A stretch of 64,000 nt of DNA. Source: Hydnum rufescens UP504. Taxonomy: Eukaryota > Basidiomycota > Agaricomycetes > Cantharellales > Hydnaceae. The position numbers were made by a program, and so were the translations under genes. The notes below the pieces were generated by a model. It did no database searches and was not told where the DNA came from. It saw only the letters and a program-made list of their open reading frames with translations. Where the stretch lies: contig MU129036.1 in assembly GCA_014904985.1 (NCBI GenBank), forward strand, positions 1-64,000. The letters are read 5' to 3'. This document shows, in pieces, positions 3,662-28,900 of the stretch; within the stretch, counting starts at the first letter, position 1; each line of letters opens with the position of its first letter.

Positions 3662-4409
3662 TCATTGTGCATGAGTTCGGACCCCAGGGTAAGCGGATTC
3701 ATTATTGATTAAAATGGGACTGGGGTGGGTGCCTGTGTTTAGTTCAAATGGGGAGTATCCCATTGTGTCAGAACTTGCTAGGTTCATAGCGAATTCAATG
3801 GCAGGTAGCCGTTGGACCCAATCCTTTTGGTTCAGGCTTACACACTGCCGAAGCATTTGAGTTAAGGTCCAGTTGGCCCACTCTGTGGCTCCATCCGTTT
3901 CAGGGTGGTAAGCTGTTGACATCCGTAATTCTACCCCAATGAGATTATGTAGGTGGGTCCAAAATACACTTGTGAATAAGGAGTCTTGGTCACTGATGAT
4001 CTGATCTGGTAGCCCATGTAGTTTATACACATTGTCAAACATGACCTCGGCAATATCCTTGGCCTTATACGTTTGTAGGGTTGGGACTAGGTGGACCATA
4101 GAAGAGAAATGGTCTATGATAACACAGATCATATCAAATGCACCATTATGGTTTTTTGACAGAGGAAGAGGCCCGACGAAGTCAATACCAATGGCTTGCC
4201 AGGGCCATGAGGGTACTGGCAGTGTGGATAATAAGCCAAAGGGCAATTGAGTCCATGCCTTTGAGGCATTGCAGGTGATACAGGAGGTACAGAATGCCTT
4301 CACATCTTTGTACATATCCTTCCACCAGACGTATTGGTGGAGGTAGGTAAAGGTTTTCTGTGGTCCCAAGTGGGCCAATAAGGAATGTGCATGTGATATA
4401 AGGATTTCC
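3662..4409 (-). pseudogene. Ty3/gypsy integrase (C-terminal part of pol), dead copy
   Basis: Encodes the integrase portion of a gypsy polyprotein. A zinc-binding segment is visible (HLGPQKTF... then CTSCITC), followed by the catalytic core with the first Asp in GIDFVGPLP, the second Asp in ISDQDSLF, and the Glu region in AYHPETDGATEWAN. The N-terminal side is cut off at 4410 by repeat X copy 1, and the frame ends at a TGA (3662-3664) where an Arg codon is likely. In the intact element it would join viral-type cDNA to the genome. It follows RNase H in minus-strand order, as expected for Ty3/gypsy rather than copia. Confidence 0.9.
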
Positions 4410-4610
4410 CGGTATAGAAGAAGGGTTGGGAGCTCCGATGACTGTCAAATCAAAATCTGGTTCAGCCAGTGTGTAGATAGGAGACTGTGTTTCTGTTTAT
4501 TCAAATGGGTTGGTTCACTTCAATGGTTGATCACTCTCTGCAAGATATGTATGTGTTTATTGGAGAATGGAATGTGATATGGACTAGCAATAGTCAATGA
4601 TATATCGTAG

Positions 4611-4700
4611 ATGCTTATAGGAAGGCTTATACGTCGTATGGAATGCTTATAGAAAGGCTTATGTGTGGAGGATGCTTATGGAAAGGCTTATATGTGTTTG
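4611..4700. repeat. Short tandem repeats in X copy 1
   Basis: Three imperfect copies of a roughly 30-35-bp unit built on atgcttatrgaaaggcttat. The equivalent zone of copy 2 is degenerate. Confidence 0.7.
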
Positions 4701-5109
4701 TGTTGTGTTGTTTGTTTACTGATATTTGTGTGTCCTTGTTTACGTCCTCCTAGTCAAAATGCAGATATCTGTGGGCTATAGAATGGTCAGTGCTTGGTTA
4801 GTTTGGTTAGTATGCTTCAATCTTCTTTCCTGACTCATATTTTGTTATGCTTACTTTTTCCTTGGATGTCCAGCAACTCTAACCTTAGGTTCTGCAACTA
4901 TCCTTGGCTTCAGTATTTCGTGTAGATGACTTCCAGTAGCTTGGTCTCAACAACCTTGAAGATGACTTAGCTCCAGATGGCTTTAGATAGACAGTTCTTT
5001 AGATATTAAGCAGAATGGTAGACAGTAGTTGACAGTGGTTGATTTCCAGAGTGAGGAGATGGGGGGGAACAAGAAAATCTGCTAGCTTATATACCTATCT
5101 GAAGGTGGC

Positions 5110-5330
5110 TGTGCATGGAGCAAGAACAAAAGAGTAATAAAGCTATGAGATCATAGTGATGTCATGGGGGAGTCATAGTGGAGTAGAACAAAAGAGTAAT
5201 AAAGAAATGATGTCATAATGTGGTCATAGCTGAGTCATCCATAGAGTGTGATGTCATAGTGAAGTCATAGTGAAGTCATTCATAAAGAGAACAAAAGGAT
5301 TCATAAAGGGAATGATGTCACTAATTTGCT
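5110..5330. repeat. tgatgtcatag-type repeats in X copy 1
   Basis: Repeated aacaaaagagtaataaag and gatgtcatagtg blocks. The matching zone of copy 2 (13521-13640) instead shows four direct copies of a roughly 32-bp unit (tatgaatgactcaccta...gcaaccac). Confidence 0.65.
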
Positions 5331-5437
5331 GAGCTTGTGGAGTGGTTGGAGCATGATGTCACTGGTCTTGTGATGTGTTTTGGGGCTCATGGGAAGCGAA
5401 ATTAAGGGACATCTCCAGGCTCTGGAGATTAATCTGA

Positions 5438-5530
5438 GCATAGTCCAGTGGTTAAGGTGTTTTTTTTTTGTTACTGGTTAATAAAAGGAACAAGTGCATG
5501 GTGTGGGATTCGATGCAGAGACAGCAGTTT
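5438..5530 (+). other. tRNA-like (SINE-type) A and B boxes inside repeat X
   Basis: An A-box-like tagtccagtggttaag (about 5443-5457) and a B-box-like gggattcgatgc (5506-5517) are about 60 bp apart, the spacing of an internal Pol III promoter. The same pair is conserved on the opposite strand in copy 2 (about 13316-13395). The stretch does not fold as a complete tRNA. Confidence 0.4.
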
Positions 5531-5547
5531 GCATCCGTAATAGGCGT

Positions 5548-5960
5548 GCTTGGTACCATTCGACGCGGATTTTTAACAGCTTTCTGGGCGCGGTGGTTCC
5601 GAGCAGATCGGATGCGAACTGACAGAGAAATTCATTTTTTACTGATGGGTGTTGATTCTGATAGTAATATCGTTCTGTAGAGTTCAATTTTAATTTGTTC
5701 TTCGCGTGCTTAGTACCGTTGGATGCGGATTTTTATATCTTTCTAGACGCGGTTGTTCCGAGAGGATTGAATGCAAACTGACGGAGGTATTCATTTTTTA
5801 CTGGAAATCCTGGATTTTAATAGTAAAATTGGCCTGGAGAGTGCAGTTTTGGTCCATTCAACTTGTGTTTGGTACTGTTCGAAAGGTGTGAATCATAGCT
5901 TTCTAAGCGTTATATGGGTGTACCTCTCCAATCAAAACTGACGGAGTTATAAAACGAATT
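5548..5960 (+). repeat. Diverged tandem repeat, about 160 bp unit, in repeat X
   Basis: Two and a half diverged copies of a unit containing ttggtaccattcgacgcgg, ggttccgag, ctgacagag and cattttttactg. Starts are near 5549, 5708 and 5868. The same array, inverted, is in copy 2 (about 12870-13310). Confidence 0.65.
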
Positions 5961-6076
5961 TGGTTTCTGTGCATAGCCGTAATTAATCTCATAATCGGTC
6001 ATGTGATTGTCCAATGGCTGGAAGTTGTGTAATTTCGCATTTTCTGATACTGGATGTTTTTATCTTCCACACTGGA

Positions 6077-7787
6077 TTCTCCTATCCTGATATTTCAGGT
6101 CTGGAATACAAAGAATACTGTAAGGACCATTCTCCATGTAGAGGTACTTCCCATCTTGGTATATAAAGTTTTTGTACTGTGATAGATATCCATCTGGGGT
6201 GTTGGCTACCTCTGGTGAATCCACAATTATAGAGAAGAAAGGGTCTTCAGAATATTTCCCTGCCAGATAGTCTGGAAGGACTAGTCTGGGGGCAGATCCA
6301 GAGGTCAGTGAGACCAGTAATGGAGGTCTCTTTGTTAGCTCGTCAATTTCATCGCCAAGTACATTTTCAGCTAGGGGTGACGGCTGAGAGACAGCTGATT
6401 TCTGACAGAGATGTTCTGGTACTTTAATTCTTAACTTCAGCTTTTCCATAGGGGCTGAAGTAGTTTCAGGGGGGGTGGACACCACCGGGGTCTTAGTGAT
6501 TGTGGTGGTTGGTGCCACTGGCAGTTTCCGGGGTTGTGGCTGGGCTTTGGCTGCAATAGCAGGCCGAGATGTTCGGGTGTGGAGAACCCGAGGTTGAATG
6601 GGAAGGGGTCCTGTGTCTAAGGGTCGGGTGAAAGCCATGTGTGGTGCAATTGCCTTAGATAGGATTACCCCTGGGTCAGATGAAGACTGTTCTGAGATGA
6701 ATTCGGATTTGGCTCGTTCAGTACCTAGGGGTTCATCACTGTAGATCCTGGATAAGGCATCTGGGAAACCATTGAGATTCCCTGGGAGGTACATTATGGT
6801 GAAATCATAATCACTTAGGGCATCAAGCCAGCAAGCTTGGTGAGCTGACAATTTTGACTGAGATTGAAGGAACTGGAGGGGTTTATGGTCCATGTATAGG
6901 CGGAAGTGAAGCCCAATCAAAAGATCCTTGAATCGCTTCAGAGACTCAATGATGGCTAGTAGTTCTCATTCATGTACAGGATAATTCTGTTGTGCAGAAT
7001 TGAATTTACCACTCCAAAAGGCAACAATCTGAGCAGTATCAAGGTTTTCACCTTGGCTTACTACTCTGCCTGCACCAGTAAGGGATGCATTGGTGACTAG
7101 GTTCACTGGTGGGGCTCCAGGGGCATAGTTTATGGGTCTTCGGTGATGATCATGGTAGTCCAATACAATCTGTTGGATGTCTTCAAAGGCACATTGGTGT
7201 ACTTCATCCCATTTCCAGGGCCACTTAGCACTCGTGAGAGGTGTGAGAACACCCATTGGGTGGCATAAGTCCTTGCAGCTTGGGGCAAGGTAGCCAGCAG
7301 CACTGAGAAATCCATGCAGGAGAGAGGCATTAGTAGGGATTTTCCACTTCATGATAGAGTCCACTTTGTGGGGGTCCATGACAATACCATCTTTATCAAT
7401 TACATGCCCAAGGATCTCCAATTTCTCAGCAAAGAATTGGAGTTTATCTAGTGTGGTCAGGTAGAATTTCTCCTGCCACAAGACATTGAAGACCATATGG
7501 CAGTGCTTCATGTGGTCATCAATGGAGTTAGAATATATCAGAATGTCATCCAAGTAGACATCGACAAATACACCAATATATGAGGATAAGGCAGCTACCA
7601 TGATCTGTTGGAAGGTTGCACCGGAGTTGCAGTCACCTTGGAGCATGACCAAGCTCCGCATCGTGCCATCTGGTGTCATAAGTAGATTACAGTTGACATG
7701 ATCAGGATGTACTCTAATTTGTTCATAGGCATCATGCCCATCTATCACAGTTTGGTAAGGGTGGCGTGCGATTCGGTCCAGCAGCTC
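6077..7787 (-). pseudogene. Gypsy reverse transcriptase (palm to C-term) and RNase H, dead copy
   Basis: Carries the RT palm and thumb: DGHDAYEQIRVHP near the start, then YLDDILIYSNS with the catalytic Asp pair, then the connection domain and an RNase H segment. The usual RNase H 'TDAS' is TNAS here (VTNASLTGAGR), so its first catalytic Asp is lost. The LPGNLNGFPDALSR block typical of gypsy RNase H tails is present. One in-frame TGA (6966-6968) falls where HEREL is normal. The part is bounded on both sides by repeat X, so RT is split from its own N-terminal half (14322-14863). Confidence 0.9.
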
Positions 7788-7798
7788 CCAGTGTGGAA

Positions 7799-7807
7799 GA
7801 TAAAAAC
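7799..7807. repeat. Target site duplication of element Y, left
   Basis: GATAAAAAC, repeated exactly at 12780-12788 on the other side of Y. Uninterrupted X copy 1 contains the same 9-mer once in the equivalent place, which confirms it as the pre-insertion sequence. Confidence 0.85.
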
Positions 7808-8384
7808 CAACCTGGTCAGCCACAAATGTACATCTAGTTAGATACAATGAGCCTTGCATTTAAATAGTCTAACTAGATGTTTTTAGGCGGGGGCCCCTGG
7901 GGCCTCCGGGGGTGATTTCGGACCCTCAGACAAGGGGCCCCAGGGGCCCCTGGCTCTGAACTTGGAAAAATTCACCAAAATTGGGACTTAAAGAATCAAG
8001 ACTTAGACAGGAGTAGGCTGCCCCCAAGCAGGTCAACAGGTCATACGGGCTTATCGGCAACTATGATTATTTACTTATTATTGTTGATTCTCATACATAT
8101 TATTATTATACAAGTATTATACACATCTATCTACCCTCAGCTCACCTCAGTCGCATGTTTTCATTCAGGGCTTTGCTTGGCGGGTCTTTAGTCATGGGTT
8201 TTGGTAAGACAGGTGTTCATTCAGCAGGTTTCCATGTAGGGGGTTTCGGCTGGGCTCGTGCGAGTGTTGGTTCATCAGATTGTGGCCTAAAATAATAAGA
8301 TACAAGTTAGAAATTTGAACCAGCACAAAAAGAGCAGCTTAAGCTGCTCTTTTTGCGTGGCTGTATCTACTGTGGGTGACTTAC

Positions 8385-8531
8385 CTTATATAGGACCACA
8401 CACCCGCCGCAGCGGGTGTGTGGTTTGCGTGGGTCCTTCATTCAGCGGGTTTTGATTGGGCAGGTCTTTGTTCGGCGGTTGTTCATTTGGTGGATTGCTG
8501 TTTGGGAGGGGGGGCTCGTTCAGGCGATGTC
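8385..8531 (-). other. Exon-like piece encoding PNE-type repeats (Y module)
   Basis: A 147-nt interval between a CTAG acceptor and an ATATAAG|GTAAGT donor. One frame is open and repetitive: short units such as EPPLPNS, NPPNEQP, LPNQNPLNE. It ends in the hairpin-coded THPLRRVCG and an in-frame TAA just before the donor. The next module (8633-8791, 159 nt) has the same layout with MPNEPPLPND and NLPNEPPPDE. Whether a protein is made is unknown. Confidence 0.45.
8395..8424. repeat. Exon-end hairpin CCACACACCCGC/GCGGGTGTGTGG (family)
   Basis: First of at least twelve copies of a 25-30-bp palindrome that sits just exon-side of each donor. Other copies are near 8643, 8898, 9284, 9576, 9865, 10143, 10391, 11174, 11554, 11923 and a degenerate one near 12447. 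Loop sequence varies and the stem is kept, with compensating changes in some copies. Confidence 0.8.
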
Positions 8532-10439
8532 CTAGAAAAATCGATAAAATGTTAGTTAAAATTTATAACCAGCGCAAAAAGAGCAGCAATTGCTGCTCTT
8601 TTTGCGCTGTTGCATACACTAGATCTATTTACCTTATATATCACCACACACCCGCTGCAGCGGGTGTGTGGTTGGCATGTCTTCGTTCGGCAGGTTTTCA
8701 TCAGGCGGGGGTTCGTTCGGCAGATTGTCGTTTGGGAGGGGGGGCTCGTTTGGCATGTGTTCATCCAGCAGCTTCTGGTTCAGGCGATGTCCTAGAAAAA
8801 ATTGATAAGATGTCAGTGAAAATCTATAACCAGCGCAAAAAGAGCAGCATTTGCTGCTCTTTTTGCATGGTTGCATACACTACTTACCTTATATATTACC
8901 ACACACCCGCTTTGGCGGGTGTGGTGTGGGTGGTTTTGTTTGGCGGGTGGCATTTGGCCCATGCTCGTTTGGTGGGTGGGCATTGGGTGGGCATTCGTAT
9001 GTTGGGTTTTGGTCGGGCGGGCATTCGTTCGTTCGGCGGGTTTGCTTGTTTTGTACCGCGGTCGCGTGGTTCGTACTCGGTACGGTGGCTGGTCGTCATT
9101 TATGGGGTTCGCGGGTTTCCCTTCTCGCGGGTTTCGTTTGGCAGGGTCGTGGGTCTTGATTGGGTGTTGTGACAACCTAGAATAATAAATAGGATGTTAG
9201 TAAACCAAAAAAAAAAAGAAAAGCCAGGCAAAAGGAGCAGCGTACGCTGCTCCTTTTGCGTCGTTGTACTTACCTTTAAATTACCACACACCCGCTTCGG
9301 CGGGTGTGTGGTTCCATCTGCGTTTTCGGTCGTCTCGCGTTGTGGGTTTCGTCTGGTGGGCCGATCGTGGGCGGGTGTCGTTGGTTGGGTTTTGGCGGGT
9401 TGCGTTCGTATGTTTCATTAGGCAGGGGGGGGGCTTCATTGTGAACTCAGATGATGATCTAGAATAGTAAGTAATATGTTAGCAAAAAAAAAAAAAAAGA
9501 AAAAGGAAAAGCCACGCAAAAGGAGCAGCATACGCTGCTCCTTTTGCGCGGTTGTACAGATACTTAGCTTAATATTACCACACCCGCTTCGGCGGGTGTG
9601 GTTCCATCTGCGGTTTCTGTGGTCTTGCATCGTGGGTTTCGTCGGGTGGGCCGATCGTGCAGGTTTCATTTGGTTGGGGTTTTGGCGGGTTACATTCATA
9701 CATTTCATTAGGCGGGGAGCTTCATTGTGAACTCAGATGAGGATCTAGAATAATAAGTAATACGTTAGCAAAAAAGAAAAAAAAAAGAAGAAAGAAAAGC
9801 CACGCAAAAGGAGCAGCATACGCTGCTCCTTTTGCACGGTTGTACAGATACTTAGCTTAATATTACCACACCCGCCGAAGCGGGTGTGGTTCCGTCTGCG
9901 GTTTCTGTGGTCTTGCGCCGTGGGTTTCGTCTGGTGGGCTGATCGTGGGCGGGTGTCATTTAGTTGGGGTTTTGGCGGGTTACGTTCGTAGGTTTCATTA
10001 GGTGGGGGGTTCGCAGATGACAATCTAGAATAATAAATAATACATTAGTAAAAAAGAAAAAGAAGAGAAAAGAAAAGCCGCTCAAAAGGAGCAGCGTATG
10101 CTGCTCCTTTTGCGCGGTTGTACAGATGCTTACCTTGAAATCCCCACACATCCGCCGCAGCGGGTGTGTGGTTTGCGTTGCTACCTCTCATGCCTTCGTT
10201 TGGTGCATTGCCATGGGGGCCTTGGCTGGTTGGGTCTCGTCATTTGGCACCGGGGACCAGGCCAGGACCTAGAATAATAATGAATGGTGTTAGTAAAGAA
10301 ATTCAATGCAGCGCAAAAAGAGCAGCTTTCGCTGCTCTTTTTGCGCCACAGTATCTATTGGGGCGGAGGGGAAACTCACCTTAAATAGTACCACACACCC
10401 ACCACAGCGGGTGTGTGGTCATGTGCTCGCCTTTCTGGC

Positions 10440-11160
10440 GCTGCTGGGTGTGGCTGCGTAGTTGTGCAAACCCAACACCGGCAATTGCCGGTACTCAACA
10501 AGCGCCCAAGTGCTGGTGCCACAAGGAGAATACATATTAATAACAAGTATCTGGACCTGTAATAAATACTATACAATGAATATTGATCTAAAAATGCGAA
10601 GAAGGCGATGACAATAAGTCAGGGCTCAACACGGCATGATATGCCTAATTGGAAAGTGGATTGAGCCACTTCTGTGGGTCAGAATTGGCCCAAATTTAAA
10701 TATATTAATGGTATATATGCACCCTATGTGGACGATCATTTATATCAGCTGTTCCGGGCATTTTTCAATTTTTCATGCCTTCAATTCCCTATTTAGGGAA
10801 TTGAAGGCGTGAAAAATTGAAAAATGCCCGGAACAGCTGATATAAATGATCGTCCACGTAGGGTGCATATATACCATTAATATATTTAAATTTGGGCCAA
10901 TTCTGACCCACAGAAGTGGCTCAATCCACTTTCCAATTAGGCGTATCATGCCATGTTGAGCCCTGACTTATTGTCATCACCTTCTTCATATTTTTGGATC
11001 AATATTTATTGTATAGTATTTATTACAGGTCCAGATGCTTGTTATTAATATGTATTCTCCTTGTGGCACCAGCACTTGGGCGCTTGATGAGTACCGGCAA
11101 TTGCCGGCGTTGAGTTTGCATCTTCCTCCGCATCTCCGCTACCACAACAACCGCCTGAAA
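10440..11160. repeat. Long inverted repeat at the centre of Y
   Basis: Two arms of about 350 bp, almost identical, meet at ttcaattccctatttagggaattgaa (about 10783-10808) with essentially no spacer. Differences are few single bases, for example gcaccctatgtgg against ccacgtagggtgc. The outer part of each arm holds ggcaattgccgg, itself a palindrome. AT-rich TATA-like sequence (atatatttaaatttggg) is in both arms, so the centre could act as a divergent promoter for the two outward-reading arrays. Confidence 0.85.
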
Positions 11161-11199
11161 AGGCAACCACACGACCACACACCCGCCACTGTGGGTGTG

Positions 11200-12540
11200 T
11201 GGTCACAAGGTGAGTATTTCTATGAGTAGATACAATGGCGGAAAAAGAGCAGCGAAAAGCTGCTCTTTTTCCGCTGCTTTGAATCATATACTAACATGTC
11301 GTTTATTACCATAGATTGAGGCCTTCTCCAAGGCACGACGAAACCCCACGAAACGACCGGGGCCATGGCAACACGATACGCCACAACGCGCCAAACGGTA
11401 ACACGCCAAATGACACGACATACGGCAACGCGCCGAACGAGGATGCAACGCGATGTACGCAACACGCCAAATGGCGATGCAACATACGGCAACGTGCCTA
11501 ACGGTAGCGCGCCAAACAAGGACGCAACCACGCCAAATGAGGGCTCCAGGAACCACACACCCGCTGCGGTGGGTGTGTGGTACTATATAAGGTGAGTGTC
11601 CCCCCAGTAAATACAGCCGCACAAAAAGAGCAGCGAAAGCTGCTCTTTTTGTGCTGGTCTTACTACTTAAGTACTAACCTATATATTTTTAAATTGTAGG
11701 TGTTCCTCAACCCTTGTGCGAGACCCACGCACCACGGTATCGCCCCCCGCACCTGTACATCAAACGATACCCCGCGAGACCCCCATACAAAAAACCAGGC
11801 ACGAGTCCATATAGACCCCGCACCCACACATTGAACGATACCCCGCAAGACCCCCGTACGAAAAACCGGGCACAAGTCCATATAGACACCGCCATCGAAA
11901 TGAACGACACAATACGAGGTGCCACACCCCCGCTGCGGTGGGTGTGTGGTACTAGAATGTATGTTTCGTATCTTTTAAATCTAATTTCTATGTCTACGTG
12001 GCGCAAAAAGGGCAGCGCAAGCTGCCCTTTTTGCGTCACTTCTGATTTATATATCTTTTGATTCTAGATCGCGCGACACAGACTGCCCAAGCCCCCGAAC
12101 GAGCAACCCCCCAACAACGGAACCCTGTGCGAATCCACAAACCAGCGGATACGAGCCCGCACAGACCCCACCATCCACATGACCGGTGCAGGTGCACTGT
12201 GAGGCACCATGCCTGCTCCAGTGCAAGTGTGGTACTAGAATATAGGTTCCCCCCCCCCCATAATGACAATCGCGCAAGAAGAGCAGCCACAGGTTGCTCT
12301 TCTTGTGCATTTTTGAATTTTAACTAACATATCCTTTACTCTAGGAACCAGGCCTCATGTGAATGCTCAAACTGGACCCGCGCAAGTATATGAGCCGGGA
12401 CCCAGGCGAACATACAAATGAACGCAAGGGGAGAAGAGAGTAACCCCCACTGCGGTGGGTGTGATCATTTTAAGGTATGTATTTATTCATTTTGCTACAA
12501 GTGCGCAAGAAGAGCAGCCTGTGGTTGCTCTTCTTGGGTG
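11200..12540 (+). repeat. Right arm module array of Y (five intron hairpins)
   Basis: Plus-strand modules with hairpins near 11237, 11621, 12001, 12271 and 12506. The first two have clear donors (cacaag|gtgagt; tataag|gtgagt), actaac branch points and tag acceptors (accatag near 11313, aattgtag near 11699); later ones are more degenerate (attctag near 12068, ctctag near 12343). The exon after 11313 encodes APNG, TPND, APNE, VPNG, APNK, TPNE units, the counterpart of the PNE repeats on the left arm. A roughly 70-bp direct repeat lies at about 11760-11890. Confidence 0.7.
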
Positions 12541-12589
12541 CATGGTGAGCCCCACTGGGCGAGCCTATCAATGTATATAGGAATAATAA

Positions 12590-12598
12590 CAATAATAA

Positions 12599-12630
<32 letters not shown>

Positions 12631-12632
12631 AA
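12590..12632. repeat. Microsatellite (taaa)n
   Basis: About ten copies of a 4-bp aata/aaat unit near the right end of Y. Confidence 0.9.
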
Positions 12633-12779
12633 ATGCCAGGGGCCCCTGGGCTGCTTGAGGGGCCCCTTGATTGTATTGCAGGGGCCCCCGGGGGCCCCCT
12701 GGTGTAAACCTCTAGTTAGATATAATAAATGCAATGCTCATTATATCTAGTATGATGCGGAAAAGTGGCTGACCAGCCT

Positions 12780-14321
12780 GATAAAAACATCCAGTATCAG
12801 AAAATGCGAATATCCATTGATCCCAGCCATTGGAATGATCACGTGACCTATTATGAAATCAATTACGGCTACGTGCAGAAATCGAATTCGTTCTATAACT
12901 CTGTCAGTTTTGATCAGAGAGGTACACCCATATAACTCTTGGAAAGCCACGATTCATACTTTTCAAATGGTACCAAACACAAGTCGAACAGACCAGAAGT
13001 GCACTCTCCAGACCAATATTACTGTCAAAATCCGGATTTTCAGTAAAAAACGAATTTCTCCGTCAGTTCGCATCCAATCCTCTCAGAACAACCGCGTCTG
13101 GAAAGATATAAAAAATCCGCATCCAATGGTACTAAGCACGTGAAGAACAAATCAAAACTGAACTCTACAGAATGATATTACTATCAGAATCAACACCCAT
13201 CAGTAAAAAACGAATTTCTCTGTCAGTTTACACCGGATCTGCTCAGAACCACCGCGCCCAGAAAGCTGTTAAAAATCCGCATCGAATGATACCAAGAACG
13301 TCTATTACGGATGCAAACTGTTGTTTCTGCATTGAATCCCATCCCATGCACTTGTCCCCATTATCAACCAGCAACAAAAACATCTTAACCACTGGACTAC
13401 AAACAAATTAATCTCCAAGAACTCGGAAATATCCTTTGATTTCATCTCCCATTGCCACAAATAACTTCTAGAACCTCACAGATAAGAAAGATAACACCTT
13501 AGCAACCCTTTTGTTCTGTTTATGAATGACTCACCTATCTTGCAACCACTTTATGAATGACTCACCTATCATGCAACCACCTTATGAATGACTCACCTAT
13601 CATGCAACCACCTTATGAATGACTCACCCTCCTTGACAACCCTATTGTCCTCACATATGACTCACTTAGGAGTGAGTCATATTCTTTAAACACAGCCACC
13701 TTCAGAAAGGTATAAAAGCTGGTAGATTTTCCTGTATCCCCCCATCATCTTCTCACTGGAATATACTACTGTCTACAAATCTGCTTGCATCTTAAGAGAG
13801 TACTGATCTAAAGCCATCTGGAGCTAAGTCATATACAAGGTTGTTAAGACTAAGTCACTGGAAGCCCTCTACGCGAAATACTGAGCCAAGGATAGTTGCA
13901 GGACCTAAGGTTAGAGTTGCTGGACATCCAAGGAAAGGCGAGTGAAAACAAAGTTAAGTCAGAAGAAGAGAGAAACACATTGACATACTAAATCAAGCTT
14001 AAACTAGTCTAGAGTCCTCTTTAGAATCCGCATTTTGACCAGGAGGACACAAATAGGTACCCACAGATAGCAGTAAACAGTTCAACACAACACGTATAAG
14101 CCTTTCACAAGCATCCCACGATATATCATTGACTATAGCTAGTCCATACCACAATCTTATCCTCCACTGAATACCATACCTAACTTGTTAGAGAGTGATC
14201 AACCATCAGAGCGAACCAGCCCATTGAATAAAAACAGAAATACAGTCTCCCATCTACACACTGGCTGAACCAGAGTTTGATTTGACAGTCATTGGAGCTC
14301 CCAATCCTTCTTCTATACCGG
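12780..14321 (+). mobile_element. Repeat X, copy 2 (inside gypsy RT; split by Y)
   Basis: Reverse complement of 4410-6076. Its first 20 bases lie at 7788-7807, on the far side of Y, so Y inserted into this copy. It ends at CTATACCGG (14318-14321), directly against the RT sequence coding PLLDI. A TATA box (ggtataaaagctgg, 13707-13720) with a CT-rich leader after it supports an LTR-like promoter reading rightward. A tandem array of four ~32-bp units lies at 13521-13640. Confidence 0.7.
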
Positions 14322-14863
14322 ATGTCCAGTAGGGGCAAGGCCATTTTCACCGTATTAGCATTTTGCTCTCATTTGTCAATAACAGTGCGAATACGCACTT
14401 CACCATTTGGACCAGGTTTCTTTTTGACAATTAACATCAGGGCTGCATTTGGTCCTACATGGTATTCCCAGTGGCCAGTATTAATCATGGCATCCTGTTT
14501 CTTATTCCAAAGGGGTCGAAGAGCCTCAGGGCATGTGGACCGCCAGGACTTATAGACCTTGGTTTCGTCAATGAGTGGTATGGAATGGTTGATATTATGG
14601 AGGGGAGGAAGAGGGGTTTCCTCTACAGCCTTACAGAGATCAGCGCACTCAGTGTGGAGCTGTTGCCACAGAGTTTCAATATTCTCCTTGATAATAGTGG
14701 CACAGTGAGAGGGGATGACAGAAATATCCTGACCTCGTAGTGGAAGTGGGTCTGTATTCCCAATTACAAAGTGGGAGGGATTGAACCCAAGGGTAACTGA
14801 GTGTTGGTAGAGGAAAGGTGTGCCCAGCACAATATCATATGAGTCTAGGTTCATGATATCAAA
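14322..14863 (-). pseudogene. Gypsy reverse transcriptase N-terminal part, dead copy
   Basis: Begins after the protease with NLDSYDIVLGTPFLYQH, continues through a linker and the RT finger region (AALMLIVKKKPGPNGE, RIRTVIDK), then a TGA (14369-14371) and PLLDI, where the repeat X insertion starts. Downstream residues of the same domain resume at 7787. The split point falls between the finger and palm motifs, so no functional enzyme can be made from this locus without excision. Confidence 0.85.
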
Positions 14864-15217
14864 TCATCACTGGATACGAATACCTTGCAACTCAAATAAG
14901 ACATGGGTCTCATGGTGGATCAGGGACTGAGAACCTGTAACAGCTAACTGCACCGGCAGTGGGTTAACTAAGTTCTCAACAGGTAGCTTTAGTTGGTCGG
15001 CACAAGTGGTAGAGATAAAGTCCACTAAAGAGCCAGTATCAATGAGCACTCGACAAGTATGACCATTGATGGCCACCTTCACAACCATGGAGTTAGGTAA
15101 TACCCTACTGATGTCTTTTGGGCAAGCAGTGTTTCGTTCAAGGGCTCCATTAACAAGTTTGTCCTTATGGCATTGGTGTTGTGGCATTTTGGTAGCAGCC
15201 ATGATGTGAGCCATTCA
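14864..15217 (-). pseudogene. Gypsy aspartic protease, dead copy
   Basis: The retropepsin active-site triad is visible as VLIDTGSLVDFIS, followed by the expected hydrophobic stretch and a typical ELQGIRIQ segment. In the intact polyprotein it would cleave Gag-Pol. The segment is bounded by TGA triplets at 15215-15217 and by two adjacent TGAs at 14864-14869, all in positions where Arg would fit. Confidence 0.85.
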
Positions 15218-17251
15218 TATCGCTAAGGAGCATTCAGACTGATCCATGTTCTGTAATGTCTTGATAGATACTGCATTGGTGTGTATACTGGGCTTAGCGG
15301 ATCAGTGATCAGGGCAGTCTTTCTGGACATGGCCCACTTTTCCGCAGTTGAAGCAATGGTTTTCAGCACAGTATTGGTCCATCTGGGCTGGAGTTAGGCA
15401 GCGGGTGTCTGCCACACACCCTCCACTTGGTGCCCATGCTATGGCATATGTCCAGGATTGTGCTTGTGGTTTCCAGGAACTAGTCGGGGTAACCTGGGAG
15501 ATTCCAGCCACCAAACTGGATGTTGGTTGTATGCTATCTGGTGGGCGTATTCCTTGCACTCAGCAAAGGTGCCCATGCTCTTGTTGATTGGTCCTCTGGT
15601 TATGCCGGTCTTCATAATTCAGCAGGCTTTGTGCAGACTCGACTCTCAAGGTGAGTGTTTCCAATTCTTCAATATCACCGATGTCAGGGCTGAACCCTAA
15701 TTCAGATAATCTTATATGGTAGGATTGTCTTAAGCCTCGCCAGCAACATTGAACCAGTTGCCGAGGTGTAATGTCTACAATCTGGGAGGCTATAATCTGG
15801 AGCTCACATATGTAATCACGGACTTTCAATGTGCGTTGCTCATAACTGTCAAATTTATCTCATTGCAGCTGTCAGAACTCTGGTGGGAAGCACCAGTCAA
15901 AAAGGCCCTTTGTAATGGTTTCCAAGTTCCATTTTTCGGGGTGTCTCGCAATGTACATTACATACCACTTTGATGCTTTGCCATCGAGGCAGTTTTGGAT
16001 GTGTCGAGGTATTAGGTCCCTTGGAAACTTCATCATTGCATAATAGTTACTGACCTCGGAGATCCAGCTCTCAAAGCAGTCATAGTCAGTGGTGCCATTA
16101 TACCATGAAGGAGGTGGCAGTTTAGGGATAGAGCTGCTACTGTTAGAGCGCGTAACTACCTTCCACTTCTCCTTCTCCAAGTGAGTGGATTGCTCATTTG
16201 CTTTTCCGAGTTGTAGTAGTAAGCTGTTGTTTGAATGGATTGAGGAGGTCATCACTTGGGTCCTCTCTGTCATCATCTGGATCCGCATTTCCATCCTGGA
16301 AGTATGTTCCAAGGAAAGAGTTAAGTGGGACAAAGGATGATGCATGAGGGATGTGTGGGGTGAGGGGAGTCAAGTTTTTCTCTGGGTTATCTCTGTGACC
16401 ATCATTGTTCTACGAGATTTCTTATGTTCATTTAATGCCTGAGAGGCCTTACGCTTCAATTCAAGATCATCTGGGTTAAGATCTTTGAGTAATTTATGTG
16501 TGCGATCTTGGTCATACCTATACACAGGTGGGAGGACTATGTCCTCAGGGACACAAGATGGACCTTTGCCATGACTAGAGGGGGTGGGAGACAGCAGTTG
16601 CTCTGCTTGTTCCTTCCCCCCGCTAGTTCCAGTCTCAGTAATTGTAATACCTTGCATCGCGATGTAAGATCGCTCGGAATCACTACATGGTGTCCACAGG
16701 GCATTATCACCTACTGGTTCATGCTTTACTACATTGTTGCGGAATCAGACTATCCGATCAAATTCAGCATCAGGCATTACTAAAATGTCCGTGAGGGACA
16801 GGTTCTGTTCATAGAACATTGAGTAGTCATCAGGTACTACATAAGTTGAGCGTCCTCGACCGTCTATGGTGGCTGCAGCATCAGATTTGTATTGTGAATC
16901 ACTATATATAGATGGATATATGATAGGTACGCGAGCTTCAGCTCCAGCATCTTCACAAGCTTCAGCTCTAGTGGGATCATCACTCTTGGTGGCATCACTC
17001 TTAGTGGCATCACCGGTAACTTCTTCGGCGGCATTAAATACACCCGCAACAGGTTGATGGCCCGTCGGGTGCATAGGGGTGTCCAGACTAACAGGAGGAC
17101 TCACCTTGATGTGGTCCTGGTTCACTACCGGGGATGGTTCCGAGGCACTCGAGTCATACTCGGGACCCAGGGTGTCAACAGAGAGAGATCGGTGGTTGGA
17201 TAATCGCCACCCAACTAGGGGTGTATAGTTCCTTCCAGAATGCATGATCAT
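15218..17251 (-). pseudogene. Gypsy gag with CCHC zinc knuckle, dead copy
   Basis: Starts MIMHSGRNYTPLVGW at 17251, about 100 bp inside the 5' LTR. The N-terminal third is acidic and low in hydrophobics (DATKSDATKSDDPT). The capsid-like middle has PPPSWYNGTTDYDCFESWI. The C-terminal end carries one CCHC knuckle, CFNCGKVGHVQKDC. The frame is broken by TGA codons at 16745, 16370, 15872, 15860, 15560, 15302 and 15215; between them the same frame stays open, so the breaks are substitutions and not indels. Confidence 0.85.
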
Positions 17252-21774: not shown

Positions 21775-24700
21775 CTAGAATGGGGCGGCACCATGCATAC
21801 CAGGAGTTCGAGCTAGCTGAGGAGGGAGCGAGACCCCGAAATTACCTTCATCGGGATGTTTTGGAGAAGATTCCGTAGGAGGAAGAATAAGTCTCAGACC
21901 ATTATCTGCAGAGCTAGTGGGGCCCACTACGTTCTTCTGAGACGTATCTCTGTCGTCATGATTTTGGGCGGGGAGTTGATCGTCGCGCCGCGGTGCAGCG
22001 AGATAGGCTGCCGGCGGGTTCCACCTGTCCTTCAACTGCCCTTCTAGCTTCCGTTCGCGTTTTCTCAGCATCGCAACTTCCTGGTCCAATCTTTGTTCTT
22101 TCTCGCGATAGAACGCAAGCATCGCCGTGTGATACTCCTCTGTGAGCCGTTCTTTTTCTTTATTCACCTCTTGCAGGGTAGTCAGCATTCGCTCCATGTG
22201 GCGCTCCTGTGTTCGATACTCCTCGCGCATCGCCAATTCTCGCGCTTGGTATTCTTTGCGGTGGGTCAATTCTCGTGCTTGATACTCCTCGCGCTGGGTC
22301 AATTCTCGTGCTCGATACTCCTCACGCTGGGCCACAAGTCTAGCCTCCAAGCGTCGCTCGCGCTCTTGATCCTCCGCCCTCCGTTCGTCCATGCGCGCAG
22401 CCCACTGCTCGTTGTTCGCACGGAGCTGCAATTGGTGGTCCGCCACAAGTTTCAGTATGGTCTCGGATAAAGAAGAATCTCGAGGTCGATTCGCGTCCAA
22501 AGATTTCGGCAGCGAATGCGAGCTCGGTGCAATCATCCGAAGTGGATCATGATCGCCACGGTCCGGGGCATGCCAATCGCCGCCATTACTCTCTTCGGTG
22601 GTGGGTTCCTTGGCCACTGGAGTAGGACCCGCAACAATTGGAGAACTGGCCATTCGACGCGTGAAACTTGTAGAAGTGGGCGCCTGTCGCATCGAATCCC
22701 ATAAATGCGCGAACGCAACACAAAACTCTACAAGAAAATACGCACAGACGGCGGACGCATACGAGCTCTAGCCCTAGGGATCCAGATGGGGAACTGCGCT
22801 TCAATATTTTGTTGCGAACTTGTTTTGCGAATTTTGGGAGCCTTACCGCCGTGGACAGGCGTGGCAGGGTCGAAGGATCGCACTCTCTTGAGTATAGAGA
22901 TAGGTTTGGACGGGGTAGAATCATTCTCAGGACGATCAATGGACACCTTACGCTGGAGAGTTTTAGGCACGGGTGACTCGTCTGTCAAGGACGACAAGGA
23001 TCCGTCTAATAAGGATCCGATTGATAAGGATCCGTCTGATAAGGATCCGTCCGATGAGGATTCGTCCGGTGAGGATTCGCCTGATGAGGATTCGTGCCGG
23101 TCGTCTGCGACCTACGCTCCGTGGGAAATCCACCCAATCAGTACAGGATCAGAATACTGAAGGGAAGAACACAAACTTCAATAACATCATCATACCAACC
23201 CAATCGTGTACGCCCCGCATCAGCAGGTCGACAAACACGATATAGGAGGGCTGCACGAACGAGTCGGATTTCGATGTCATAGTTCAGCTCGCGCCCACGC
23301 TGATGCGCATTCCTCCACCGGGTTTCGGACTGAGTGTGCAAGAAATGATACAACTGGCAGCTCGGGTCTTTGTGAATCAGTAGAATCGCCTCGGCCACAT
23401 GCATGAACAAAGACCGGAGAGCATGGCGATAACATATGGAGCGATGACATGGAGGGCACCTCACTAAACCAATAAGAGGCACTAAGTGTTCCACTTCAGT
23501 ATTACGCGAAGGGGTGCATCGATGAATAGTCTTAGAAGCCAGGAAAAGACATGTATGAATGCGACGAGCCAGAGAATACCACAATAGATAGGGATGCTTA
23601 CTTTACTTCTAGATGAGGCAGTCGTTTTTCGCCTTTCGCGAAGCAACACGGCGGCCTTGAAGATGGCCAGGTGGGCGGACCTATCGTAATCTCTGATTAC
23701 GGAGATGAGCCGATAATCAACTGGAAGAATTGGGTCTTACTGGAGGGTCAATTCGGGCATGTCAAGAACCGAGGCAGCGTTGTTGCGGATTCGAAGGAGC
23801 TCCGGCCATGGTCTCAAGACCCTCGGTGCCATGTCCGCACACTTACAACTCCGCCCTTCGACATAACACGTCGCGCACATCGTGTAGAATTGATCGGGCT
23901 CATCTGGCGGCGTGCAGTTTTTGCACTCAAAATACGCTTGAAAAATATCCGTCGAGCAACAATCTGGATGGACGGTAAACGTTCTATTCTCGCGAGCATG
24001 AACGCCAGGTAGAACTCGCCGCATGTGAGATTCAGGTTGTTGGTTGTTTCTACAAGAAAGTGGGTATAATCGGGATGATATTCTTCAATGTGTATCTCTG
24101 ACATGAGCCGCACGAGACGCTCGAAACAACCACGCTCCATCCTTGTGAGCTCCCAATATCTGGGCGTTAGTTGCTCGATAGTCCGATGGACAAGGCGCTT
24201 CATGCGATATATGTCGGGTCGGCCGACCCTTGGAGAGAATGAGCCCATAGGCGAGCTTACATCGTGGGAGAAACATGGCTTACCGACGGTAAGCGGGCAG
24301 CTCGGAGAGAAGCGCCATTGCCATGCTTGACATGGGCATACGGGACCAAGCAACTTTGAGGCTGATGCCTCCGTGATTCACAACCTTGAGGATCGAGGCA
24401 TAATCAGATTAGGCTCTGGGCATGCATATTTCATTAAGGAAACTAACTTGATGGTACGACATGCGAGGGACGATCACCATATCTCCGAGTTTTTGTTGAC
24501 AAACATAGATCTATTCAACGGCATTCAAGATAAGGACCATGGATCGAGATGATGCGCATCTTACAGGAAAACCCGCCGCTTTAAATTCATCCAACGTAAC
24601 GGTGTGACTCTCGAGGTCAAGTTCTTTATTCCAAGAATTCCGAAACCACCGTGACGCAGAGTACGAATGTGCTGAAGGTGTTAAAAACCAGAAGGACGAT

Positions 24701-25970: not shown

Positions 25971-28900
25971 CTAGAATGGGACGGCGCCATGCATACCAGG
26001 AGTTCGAGCTAGCTGAGGAGGGAGCGAGACCCCGAAATCACCTTCATCGGGATGTGTTGGAGAAGAGTCCGTAGGAGGAAGAACAGCCGTAAGTCCCAGA
26101 CCATTATCTGCAGAGCTAGTGGGGTCCACTACGTTCTTCTGAGACGTATCTCTGTCGTCATGATTTTGGGCGGGGAGATGATTATCGCGCGGCGGTGCAG
26201 CGAGATAGGCTGCTGGCGGGTTCCACCTGTCCTTCAACTGCCCTTCTAGCCACCGTTCGCGTTCTCTCAGCATCGCAATTTCCTGATCCAATCTTGTTTC
26301 TTTCTCGTGATAGAACGCAAGCATCGCCGTGTGGTGCTCCTCCGTGAGCCGTTCTTTTTCCTTATTCTCCTCTCGCAGGGCAGTCAGCATTCCCTCCATG
26401 CGGTGCTCCTGTGTTCGATATTCCTCGCGCACCGCCAATTCTCGCACTCGATACTCCTCGCGCTGGTTCAATTCTCGTGTTTGATACTCCTCGCGCTGGG
26501 CCACAAGTCTAGCCTCCCACCGCCGCTCGCGCTCTTGATCCTCCGCCTTCTGGTCGTCCATACGTGCAGCCCACTGCTCGTTGTTCGCACGGAGCTGTGA
26601 TTGGTGGTCCGCCACAAGCTTCAGTATGGTCTCGGATAAAGAAGAATCTTGAGGTTGATTCGCATCCATCGATTTCGGCAGCGAATGCGAGCTCGGTTCA
26701 ATCGTCCGAACTGGATCATGATCGCCACGGTCTGGGGCATGCCAATCGTCGCCACGATCACTCTCTTCGGTAGTGGGATTCTTGGCCACGGGAGTAGGGG
26801 GTCCCACAAGAATTGGAGAACTCGCCATTCGACGCGTGGGACTTGTAGAAGTGGGCACCTGTCGCATCAATTCTCATAAATGCGCGAATGCAACACAAAA
26901 TTCTAAAAATAAAAAAAATAAACTCACAGGCGGCGGAGGTATAGGGGAACTAGCCCTAGGGGTTAAGATGGGCAACTGCGCTTGAATATTTTCTTGCGAA
27001 CTGGTGTTGCAAGTTTTGGGAGCCTTACCGCCGTGGACAGGCGTGGCAGGGTCGAAGGACCGCACTCTCTTGAGTGTAGAGATAGGTTTGGACGGGATAA
27101 GATCGTTTTGGGGCAGATCAATAGACATCTCACCCCTGAGAGTTTTAGGCACGGGCGACTTCTCCTTCGTCAAGGGCGTCAAGGACTCGTTTGATGATGA
27201 GGATCCATCTGATGAGGATTCGTCCGATGAGGATTCGTCCGATGAGAATCCGTGCCCGTCGTTTGCAACCTACGCTCCGTGGTAAATCCACCCGATCAGC
27301 ACAGGATCAGAATACTGAAGGGAAGAACCCAAACCGCATTGATATCATCATACCAACCCAATCGTGTATACCCCGCCTCAGCAGGTCGACAAACAGGATA
27401 TCGGAGTGCTGCACGGGCCAGTCGGATTTTGATATCATTGTTCATCTCGTCCCCAGGCTCATGCGCGTCCCTCCACCGGGTTCTAGACTGACTGTGCAAG
27501 GAATGATACGACTTGTGGCTCGGGTCTTTGTGGATCGTTAGAATCGCCTCGGCCGCATGCAGGAACGAAGACTTGAGAGTATGCTGATAACATATAGGGC
27601 GAGGGCATAGATCACAGCTCACTAAAGCAACGATAGACACCACGTGTGGCACTTGAGATTTACGCGAAGGGGTGCATTCATCCGCAAGTTTATAAAACTG
27701 GAAAAGGCATGCATAAATGCAACGGGCCAGAGAATACCAGAATAGATGTGGACGCTTGCGCTCACTATTCGTTCTTTCCAATGCAACACGGCGGCCTTGA
27801 AGATGGCCAAGTGGGTGGATGTATTGTAATCCCTGATTACGGAGGTGAGCCGTCACAGTTGACAATCAACCGGAAGAATTGGGTCTTACTCGAGGGTCAA
27901 CTCAGGCATGCGAAGAACCGAGGCAGCGTCGTTGCGAATTTGAAGGAGCTCCGGCCATGACCACAGAACCCTCGGCGCCATCCCCGCACACTTACAACTC
28001 CGCCCTTCAACATAACACATCGTGCACATCGTATAGGACCGGCCGTAATAGCCTCGCGGTGTGCATTGTTTGCACTCAAAATAGGTTTGAAAAATACCCG
28101 CGGAACAACAATCTGGGGGAAAGAAAACTGGTAAACGTTCTATGGTCACGAGCATCAATGCCAGTTAGAACTCGCCGCATGTGAAATATAGGTTGTTGGT
28201 TGTTTCTACAAGGAAGTCCTCATAATCGGGATGATATTCTTCAATATGTATCTCCGACATGAGCTGCACGAGACGTCTGAAACAAGGGCGCTCCGCCTTT
28301 GGGAGCTGCCGATATCTAGGCGTTAGTTGCTCGATAGTCTCATGGAGAAGACGTTTCATGCGATATATCTCAGGTCGGCCGATCCTCGCAGAGAATGAGC
28401 CATAGGCGAGCCTACATCGTGGGAGAGGCATGGCTTACCGGTGGTAGACAGGCAGCTCGTACAAAAGCGCAGCTTCCAAGCTGAAAATGGACATACGGGA
28501 CCAAGCAACTTTGAGGCTGATACCTCCGTGGTTCACAACCTTGAGATTCGGGGAATAATCAGATTAGGTTCTGGGCATGCGTATTTCATAAAAGAAACCA
28601 ACCTGATGGCACGACATGCGAGGGATGATCACCATGTCCCCGAGTTTTTGTTGACAAACATAGATCTACTCAACAATATCAAGATAAGGGCCACGGGTCG
28701 AGATGATGTGCATCTCTTACTGGAAAGTTTGCCGTTTTAAATTCATCCAACGTAATGGTGTGACTCCCCAGGTCAAGGTCTTGATGCAAAGACCTCCGAA
28801 ACCACTCCGACGCAGCGTCTGAGTCTCCTGAAGAAGTTAAAAACCAAAAGGACGATGTTTTCCCAGAGTCCAAGATATCGCCAAGCTTTGCTCCTTTCGA

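Follow-up and report, generated by a model that had tools for sequence, protein, structure and literature searches.

Non-autonomous elements of the KDZ (Kyakuja–Dileera–Zisupton) DNA transposons are among the described systems that come closest to the element analyzed here. In the available parts of the principal account, Zisupton is reported to make 8-bp target duplications, Kyakuja to have 7-bp duplications and CA..TG ends without inverted repeats, and some KDZ elements to carry TET genes (PMC12730594). The same parts ascribe 8-bp duplications to hAT elements as well, so a duplication of this length is not by itself specific to KDZ (PMC12730594). We analyzed a 64,000-nt stretch of the Hydnum rufescens UP504 genome (contig MU129036.1, positions 1 to 64,000; hereafter the window), which contains a 5-kb multicopy element, Y (7808–12780). 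Y is bounded by imperfect inverted termini, is flanked by an 8-bp target duplication and encloses a central palindrome and 13 intron-like modules. Y resembles KDZ elements in its CA..TG ends, in a duplication as long as that of Zisupton and in termini like those of loci bearing the PF18758 domain; it differs in lacking a transposase and in its interior, where divergent intron modules lie on both sides of a central palindrome; no such interior is described for KDZ elements in the available parts of that account (PMC12730594). The best reading of Y is that of a non-autonomous KDZ-type element, because its termini of about 100 bp are common to three KDZ transposase loci, and its interior looks like the layout of two divergent, non-coding, multi-intron units of RNA polymerase II type on a palindromic promoter.

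Anatomy and genomic spread of element Y

The 13 modules of Y all read outward, eight in the minus sense on the left and five in the plus sense on the right (Table 1). In the sense direction, a module consists of a U-poor exon, hairpin B (of the type CACACCCGC-N4-GCGGGTGTG), mostly 4–12 nt, the donor AAG/GTRAGT, hairpin A (of the type GCAAAAAGAGCAGC-N4-GCTGCTCTTTTTGC, with a stem of about 16–20 bp and usually a 4-nt loop), a U-rich stretch, the branch site CTAAC, about 21 nt and the acceptor TAG. A preliminary description of this DNA had placed Y at 7808..12779, which is right to within one base, with ATAAAAAC forming the 8-bp target duplication on both flanks; the terminal inverted repeats (imperfect), the long central palindrome and the 13 modules that it listed were all recovered. 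The module order that it proposed, namely exon, hairpin, donor, hairpin, branch site and acceptor, is general but has its exceptions: three donors are off consensus (two on the left read CTAAGT and the fourth on the right is degenerate), with GT in place in the other 10 of the 13, hairpin B of the fourth right module is decayed, and the fifth right module has no clean branch site.

Genome-wide counts, made with exact patterns over 63.2 Mb in 539 contigs, showed how widely these parts are spread. The hairpin-A core GAGCAGC-N4-GCTGCTC has 4,921 sites (with both strands counted for each), compared to 1 for the reversed pattern, and the hairpin-B core has 1,441; the exact hairpin-A 14-mer has 2,085 + 2,058 occurrences, the terminus pattern 304 + 309 places, and the motif of the palindrome arms 195 forward and 190 reverse places, with a control count of 0 for each of the last four patterns. 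In the window, there are 9 matches to the hairpin-A core and 6 to the hairpin-B core, against 0.00 in shuffles for both; the shuffle and reversed-pattern controls exclude a chance origin of the cores. The genome search, which scores the best candidates only, gave at least 591 matches. Twenty further stretches fetched around matches (L009–L028) constitute, together with the window, a set of 21 loci, and modules are present in all 20 of the fetched copies. Paired termini with a duplication were found in five elements, perfect (8/8) in the window, L009 and L011 and with 7/8 bases in L024 and L027; the other fetched stretches of this set yielded no such pair. The preliminary description had supposed a non-autonomous DNA element with copies and target duplications to be counted in the same genome. 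Both are there, and such an element is apparent from its copy number, its duplications and the termini that it has in common with KDZ loci.

Some copies show further features. Seven GTTGCTGACTAG-like sites, mostly spaced by about 160 bp, adjoin the copy of the element in L023 (6874–7767), and L041 combines module arrays with one complete palindrome center and an extra single arm within 10 kb, which suggests nested or neighboring insertions. The exact hairpin-A palindrome was absent from the viral contigs searched (0 matches). Two contigs of bacterial metagenome-assembled genomes each have a single exact match to the hairpin-A sequence (L045:4442–4473 and L046:5662–5693), in a form like an intrinsic terminator, and we take these two matches as due to chance.

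Splice-like signals and base composition

From the 21 loci, we collected 247 modules with a profile score of at least 70. A GTRNGY donor lies between the two hairpins in 180 of them (188 with a looser donor pattern), whereas shuffles gave a mean of 14.7 and a maximum of 30, reversed sequences 41 and the antisense strand 15. The combination of CTNAY and YAG after hairpin A was found in 222 of the 247; here, the controls run high (shuffles mean 117, maximum 139; reversed 41; a longer antisense region 144), and the branch–acceptor motif alone is therefore weak. Donor, branch site and acceptor are all present in 163 modules, with 21 nt from branch site to acceptor (interquartile range, IQR, 1.5). 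Predicted introns have a median length of 103 nt, with 5–95% of the distribution within 87–114 nt (170 introns).

Exons and introns differ sharply in composition. The 88 exons between modules contain 34% A, 35% C, 21% G and 10.6% T, compared to 44.9% T in the introns after removal of hairpin A (163 introns). T makes up 15% or less in 85% of the exons as opposed to 1.5% of 150-bp control windows, and exon T lies between 7 and 18% in each of the 21 loci, some of which contribute 2 exons only. The exons look non-coding: their lengths are spread over the remainders modulo 3 (33/27/28), and the longest open reading frames (ORFs) of the spliced units of Y, 108 aa on the left and 128 aa on the right, do not exceed the shuffled maxima of 266 and 188 aa (means 124 and 100). 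On these two grounds, we rejected coding exons and with them a protein-coding transposon. A known RNA family was likewise rejected, as the 21 Rfam matches with E up to 1 in positions 7500–13000 of the window each fall below their own gathering score.

The central palindrome and two proposed divergent units

The center of Y is a palindrome of 2 × 327 bp, the arms of which are 96% complementary and 2 nt apart. Across families, the arms are conserved in blocks that hold strings we take to be TATA-like and CCAAT-like motifs. Among 100 listed places of the arm motif, 41 divergent pairs lie 208–212 bp apart, as in an intact palindrome, and 18 places are unpaired. At the other end of the proposed units, a cluster of AATAAA-like strings lies between the last module on each side and the terminus in all five of the elements whose two ends are known, a count that has no chance control and refers to clusters in A+T-rich stretches.

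The two arms of one copy are 0.94–1.00 alike in 18 of the 20 copies with both arms (L012, 0.85; L014, 0.87). In the most separate copies, they are closer to each other than to the best other copy (L016, 0.96 v 0.91; L026, 0.99 v 0.88; L028, 1.00 v 0.95); in recent pairs such as Y and L009, orthologous arms agree better than the arms within a copy. This pattern fits a slow homogenization of the palindrome arms.

Termini shared with KDZ loci

The right end of Y is 83% identical over 102 bp to the terminus of a KDZ locus, L034 (E 4.5e-26), and the left end is 69% identical to it over 150 columns. With L035 and L036, each end of Y aligns over 88–105 columns at 72–75% identity. ORFs at all three loci match PF18758 KDZ (the L034 match being confined to the C-terminal portion of the profile), and ORFs adjoining them in L035 and L036 match CxC1. 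The three loci were picked because a terminus lay near, and it is with this selection that their 3/3 sharing of Y termini is to be read; the genome as a whole has at least 154 KDZ matches. None of the eight KDZ loci fetched (L029–L036, several with short flanks) contains a module.

A related terminus ending in ..TGACCAAGGTG lies beside decayed modules at L042:1151 and L043:2052 and is perhaps a second terminus type of the same superfamily.

Decay and conservation between copies

Most differences between Y and its near copies (matches with at least 84% identity) are C-to-T and G-to-A changes, the majority of which fall at CpG of Y (for example, 120 of 142 such changes in L009 and 209 of 259 in L010). 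All 10 near copies compared have decayed more than Y, which makes Y the least decayed among them. Inserted copies thus appear to decay by CpG deamination. Hairpins and exons change more than introns in these copies (221/2795 for hairpin A, 195/2107 for hairpin B and 962/9845 for exons), as expected of CpG-rich parts. Near-copy donors are not spared (18/455 changed v 106/2941 other intron bases), a point that weighs against use of the splice signals; because they change as fast as other intron bases, copies evidently decay freely after insertion.

This C-to-T and G-to-A decay, strong in the near copies L009–L018 and mostly at CpG sites, points to cytosine methylation of inserted copies followed by deamination.

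Diverged copies better reflect the source lineages, and there the splice signals and hairpins change about 2–7 times less than the spacers: acceptor 6/177, branch site 25/308, donor 52/433, hairpin A 262/2638 and hairpin B 229/2125, against 195/892 in the branch–acceptor spacer, 579/2508 in other intron sequence and 1668/7056 in exons; the palindrome shows 1466/8449. Since these copies are related, some aligned modules may be non-orthologous and the alignments are anchored in conserved parts, we attach no p-value to the rates. The preliminary description held that random decay of the donors and acceptors would speak against their use; the outcome is mixed, with donors decaying freely in near copies but donor, branch site and acceptor changing less in diverged ones.

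Covariation of the hairpins

In an alignment of 42 modules, 20 of 29 stem pairs show double changes that keep pairing, against a shuffle mean of 9.4; covarying cells number 76 v 24.6, and the covariation score is 0.247 v 0.141, with 0 of 500 shuffles as high. These 42 modules, out of 60 drawn references, were preselected for long stems, which biases the paired fraction upward. Sliding the partner arm destroys the covariation signal. In the modules of the 21-locus set, pairing of the true arms also exceeds that of swapped arms in re-optimized register, by a smaller margin but beyond all 30 swaps, with 0.947 v 0.890 (maximum 0.895 of 30) for hairpin A and 0.916 v 0.861 (maximum 0.869 of 30) for hairpin B; optimizing the register per hairpin only (A, 0.936 v 0.791; B, 0.883 v 0.595) overstates the gap. 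Both hairpins thus evidently covary.

Wobble pairs can tell RNA from DNA, because upkeep of a DNA palindrome would treat G.T and A.C mispairs alike. In 201 distinct A hairpins, the A-U pairs show 24 G.U v 7 A.C in the sense strand (p = 0.003; the sequences are not independent), and the G-C pairs 148 v 95 (p = 0.0008; confounded by CpG decay).

Hairpin B and the exon junction

The center of hairpin B lies at a median of 24 nt upstream of the donor (IQR 23–25, 5–95% 21–29; 163 modules), whereas the distance from the donor to the center of hairpin A has an IQR of 12.5 in the same set. Across exon positions −16 to −34 (even positions), at least 95% of 180 modules have hairpin B, and in 79 of the 80 sampled predicted spliced junctions that could be folded its loop falls near −24, between one arm at about −36 to −28 and another at about −20 to −12. 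Two accounts locate the exon junction complex (EJC) at −20 to −24 (PMC5240381, PMC6224609). Of the proteins linked to this complex and to decay, Mago_nashi and Upf2 were looked for, and both have matches in the genome.

Genomic setting

Y is inserted at a reverse transcriptase ORF of Ty3/gypsy type, with Pfam matches to RVT_1 and RNase H in 6966–7859. The retrotransposon ORFs, the introns and the abundance of KDZ transposases give the impression of an agaricomycete-like basidiomycete. Further ORFs on the minus strand at 14369–16369 resemble, by eye, another gypsy-type polyprotein. Two near-alike minus-strand ORFs (21775–22767 and 25971–26873) have long charged, probably coiled-coil stretches and constitute an apparent local duplication.

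Table 1. Features of element Y and its immediate surroundings in the window.
Feature	Positions	Strand	Remarks
Ty3/gypsy-type ORFs	3662–7859	−	integrase zinc-binding and weak core, reverse transcriptase, RNase H
Left target-site duplication	7800..7807		ATAAAAAC
Left terminus	7808..7823	+	CAACCTGGTCAGCCAC; with adjoining ~90–140 bp resembles termini of three KDZ loci
Left last-exon region	7890..8238	−	AATAAA/AATAAT-like cluster, then GGGGCCCC repeats toward terminus
Left intron 8	8287..8384	−	GTAAGT..TAG; hairpin A 8324–8357; hairpin B 8395–8424
Left intron 7	8532..8632	−	GTAAAT..TAG; hairpin A 8568–8611; hairpin B 8643–8672
Left intron 6	8792..8887	−	GTAAGT..TAG; hairpin A 8835–8866; hairpin B 8898–8927
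Left intron 5	9177..9273	−	GTAAGT..TAG; hairpin A 9224–9263; hairpin B 9283–9312
Left intron 4	9459..9567	−	donor CTAAGT; hairpin A 9512–9551; hairpin B 9577–9602
Left intron 3	9745..9855	−	donor CTAAGT; hairpin A 9800–9839; hairpin B 9865–9890
Left intron 2	10025..10133	−	GTAAGC..TAG; hairpin A 10078–10117; hairpin B 10144–10171
Left intron 1	10269..10379	−	GTGAGT..TAG; hairpin A 10307–10350; hairpin B 10390–10419
Palindrome left arm	10465..10791	−	proposed promoter and exon 1 start, left unit
Palindrome right arm	10794..11120	+	proposed promoter and exon 1 start, right unit
Right intron 1	11210..11314	+	GTGAGT..TAG; hairpin A 11238–11274; hairpin B 11173–11204
Right intron 2	11592..11699	+	GTGAGT..TAG; hairpin A 11615–11658; hairpin B 11552–11581
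Right intron 3	11959..12067	+	GTATGT..TAG; hairpin A 11996–12041; hairpin B 11919–11952
Right intron 4	12245..12344	+	degenerate donor, start ± a base; hairpin A 12272–12308; decayed hairpin B near 12208–12236
Right intron 5	12475..12580	+	GTATGT, no clean branch site; hairpin A 12504–12538; hairpin B near 12443–12462
AATAAA-rich stretch after last right intron	12581..12640	+	poly(A)-signal-like
Right terminus	12765..12780	−	GTGGCTGACCAGCCTG; outer 102 bp 83% identical to KDZ locus terminus
Right target-site duplication	12781..12788		ATAAAAAC

Proposed mechanism and its rivals

From the observed anatomy, copies, termini, composition, conservation, covariation and spacing, we infer transcription, splicing and mobilization in trans of Y, and we somewhat favor, as a whole, a model of a KDZ-moved element with two divergent spliced non-coding units and hairpin B on the EJC site. 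KDZ transposases would recognize the shared termini of about 100 bp and move the transposase-less Y in trans. A single promoter region, symmetric because it is palindromic, would give rise to two divergent non-coding units, each of which would cross an array of duplicated intron modules and stop at the AATAAA-like signals that precede the terminus. In their transcripts, which would be spliced, hairpin A would fold the middle of each intron of about 103 nt, bringing donor and branch site together, and the U-poor, A/C-rich exons and U-rich introns would keep splice choice clean. Hairpin B, located at the position at which the spliceosome leaves the EJC, might exclude or displace that complex, which would spare a stop-rich non-coding RNA with several junctions from EJC-linked decay. 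The specific reading that hairpin B blocks the EJC is a conjecture that we regard as unlikely. We put equally little weight on its extension, in which spliced non-coding transposon RNAs carry a hairpin shield against the EJC, so that stop-rich multi-intron RNAs escape nonsense-mediated decay and splicing-coupled silencing; if true, the shield would be a parasitic answer to junction marking.

Several observations weigh against the model or its parts. The donor pattern is absent in 67 of the 247 modules, and 84 lack the donor or the branch–acceptor combination; three donors of Y itself are off consensus, and the hairpin finder is permissive, with hairpin B misplaced in at least one module (L021). 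In hairpin B, the wobble bias of A-U pairs (178 distinct hairpins; 9 G.U v 3 A.C) is not significant, and that of G-C pairs (87 v 73, p = 0.30) is, as in hairpin A, confounded by CpG decay. The stretches fetched for L034–L036 did not yield a whole KDZ element, as a second end with its duplication was not found in them. Processed intron-less genomic copies were not found at two junction types, a result that is weak either way, as retrocopies are rare. The −24 register might simply have been inherited from a single ancestral module whose spacer was short. Finally, one account states that the place of EJC deposition can vary by as much as 10 nt under the influence of sequence and structure, so the hairpin may move the complex rather than remove it (PMC5240381, citing Mishler et al.).

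A serious rival to EJC exclusion is that hairpin B acts before splicing, framing the donor together with hairpin A, holding it single-stranded and raising splice efficiency, with the −24 position a by-product of a spacer of about 10 nt. The donor does lie between two stable hairpins in nearly all aligned modules, the spacing of hairpin B to the donor is tight, and both hairpins are conserved between diverged copies; but the spacing to hairpin A varies widely (IQR 12.5, against 2 for hairpin B), and the donor is therefore tightly framed on one side only. We consider this possible, though not probable.

That the mature RNA is a scaffold, with GC-rich B hairpins on unstructured A/C-rich linkers repeatedly binding a host or transposon protein and the introns serving processing or export, would agree with the regular repetition of hairpin B, its conserved stem sequence and the U-poor linkers. 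It is nonetheless quite unlikely, as it leaves hairpin A and the −24 register unexplained and is without a known protein partner.

Template correction can maintain perfect palindromes without selection at the RNA level, and the likeness of the arms within copies agrees with this. The palindromes might then act as DNA, as binding sites or recombination hot spots, the splice-like signals being relics of a captured host gene. The lower rate of change of branch site, acceptor and donor than of spacers between diverged copies, the U-poor exons in each of the 21 loci and the sense-strand excess of G.U over A.C in hairpin A make this very doubtful. Least credible is that the introns are the product, with hairpin A processed into small RNAs: the conservation of hairpin-A sequence as well as pairing and the Piwi-domain matches in the genome would fit, but its stem of about 16–20 bp is shorter than those of usual Dicer substrates and is self-complementary, and, as the few further hairpin sites fetched belong to the same family, no separate target was seen or is inferred.

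Two functions that the preliminary description had suggested find no support. We reject masking of the element in host transcripts from the outward orientation of the modules and the internal AATAAA-like clusters: a host transcript would meet one half of the insert antisense as well as these clusters (5/5 elements), so the insert would more likely truncate the transcript than be spliced out of it. As for a source of introner-like introns, the duplications flank the whole element, and the three stretches looked at around apparently isolated hairpins held other modules of the family.

Comparison with known systems

If Y is transcribed and spliced, it would be a high-copy transposon that carries intron structure, rather than protein, as its cargo, would supply within a single genome thousands of natural variants of one intron for studies of structure and splicing, and would provide a testable case of structure placed exactly on the EJC site, with a bearing on how transposons face fungal RNA surveillance. 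Judging from titles and the openings of abstracts, we recognized no element with such an interior among the papers listed by our literature searches, which is no proof of its absence from print; in an account of Laccaria elements, the main text mentions neither KDZ nor Zisupton and has no word beginning with palindrom- (PMC3411680).

Introners and introns resembling miniature inverted-repeat transposable elements (MITEs) are, like the modules of Y, repeated hairpin-bearing introns tied to a DNA transposon. In Y, however, it is the entire 5-kb element that forms the mobile unit, and no module was seen in a host gene at the few sites examined. Foldback or palindromic MITEs combine a long central palindrome with inverted termini, as Y does; the palindrome of Y, in contrast, is a small central part, and the bulk of the element consists of two unequal module arrays. 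Repeat-bearing long non-coding RNAs of the Xist A-repeat type have tandem GC-rich hairpins separated by unstructured linkers, much as the predicted transcripts of Y would, whereas the hairpins of Y are tied to splice donors and its locus is a multicopy transposon.

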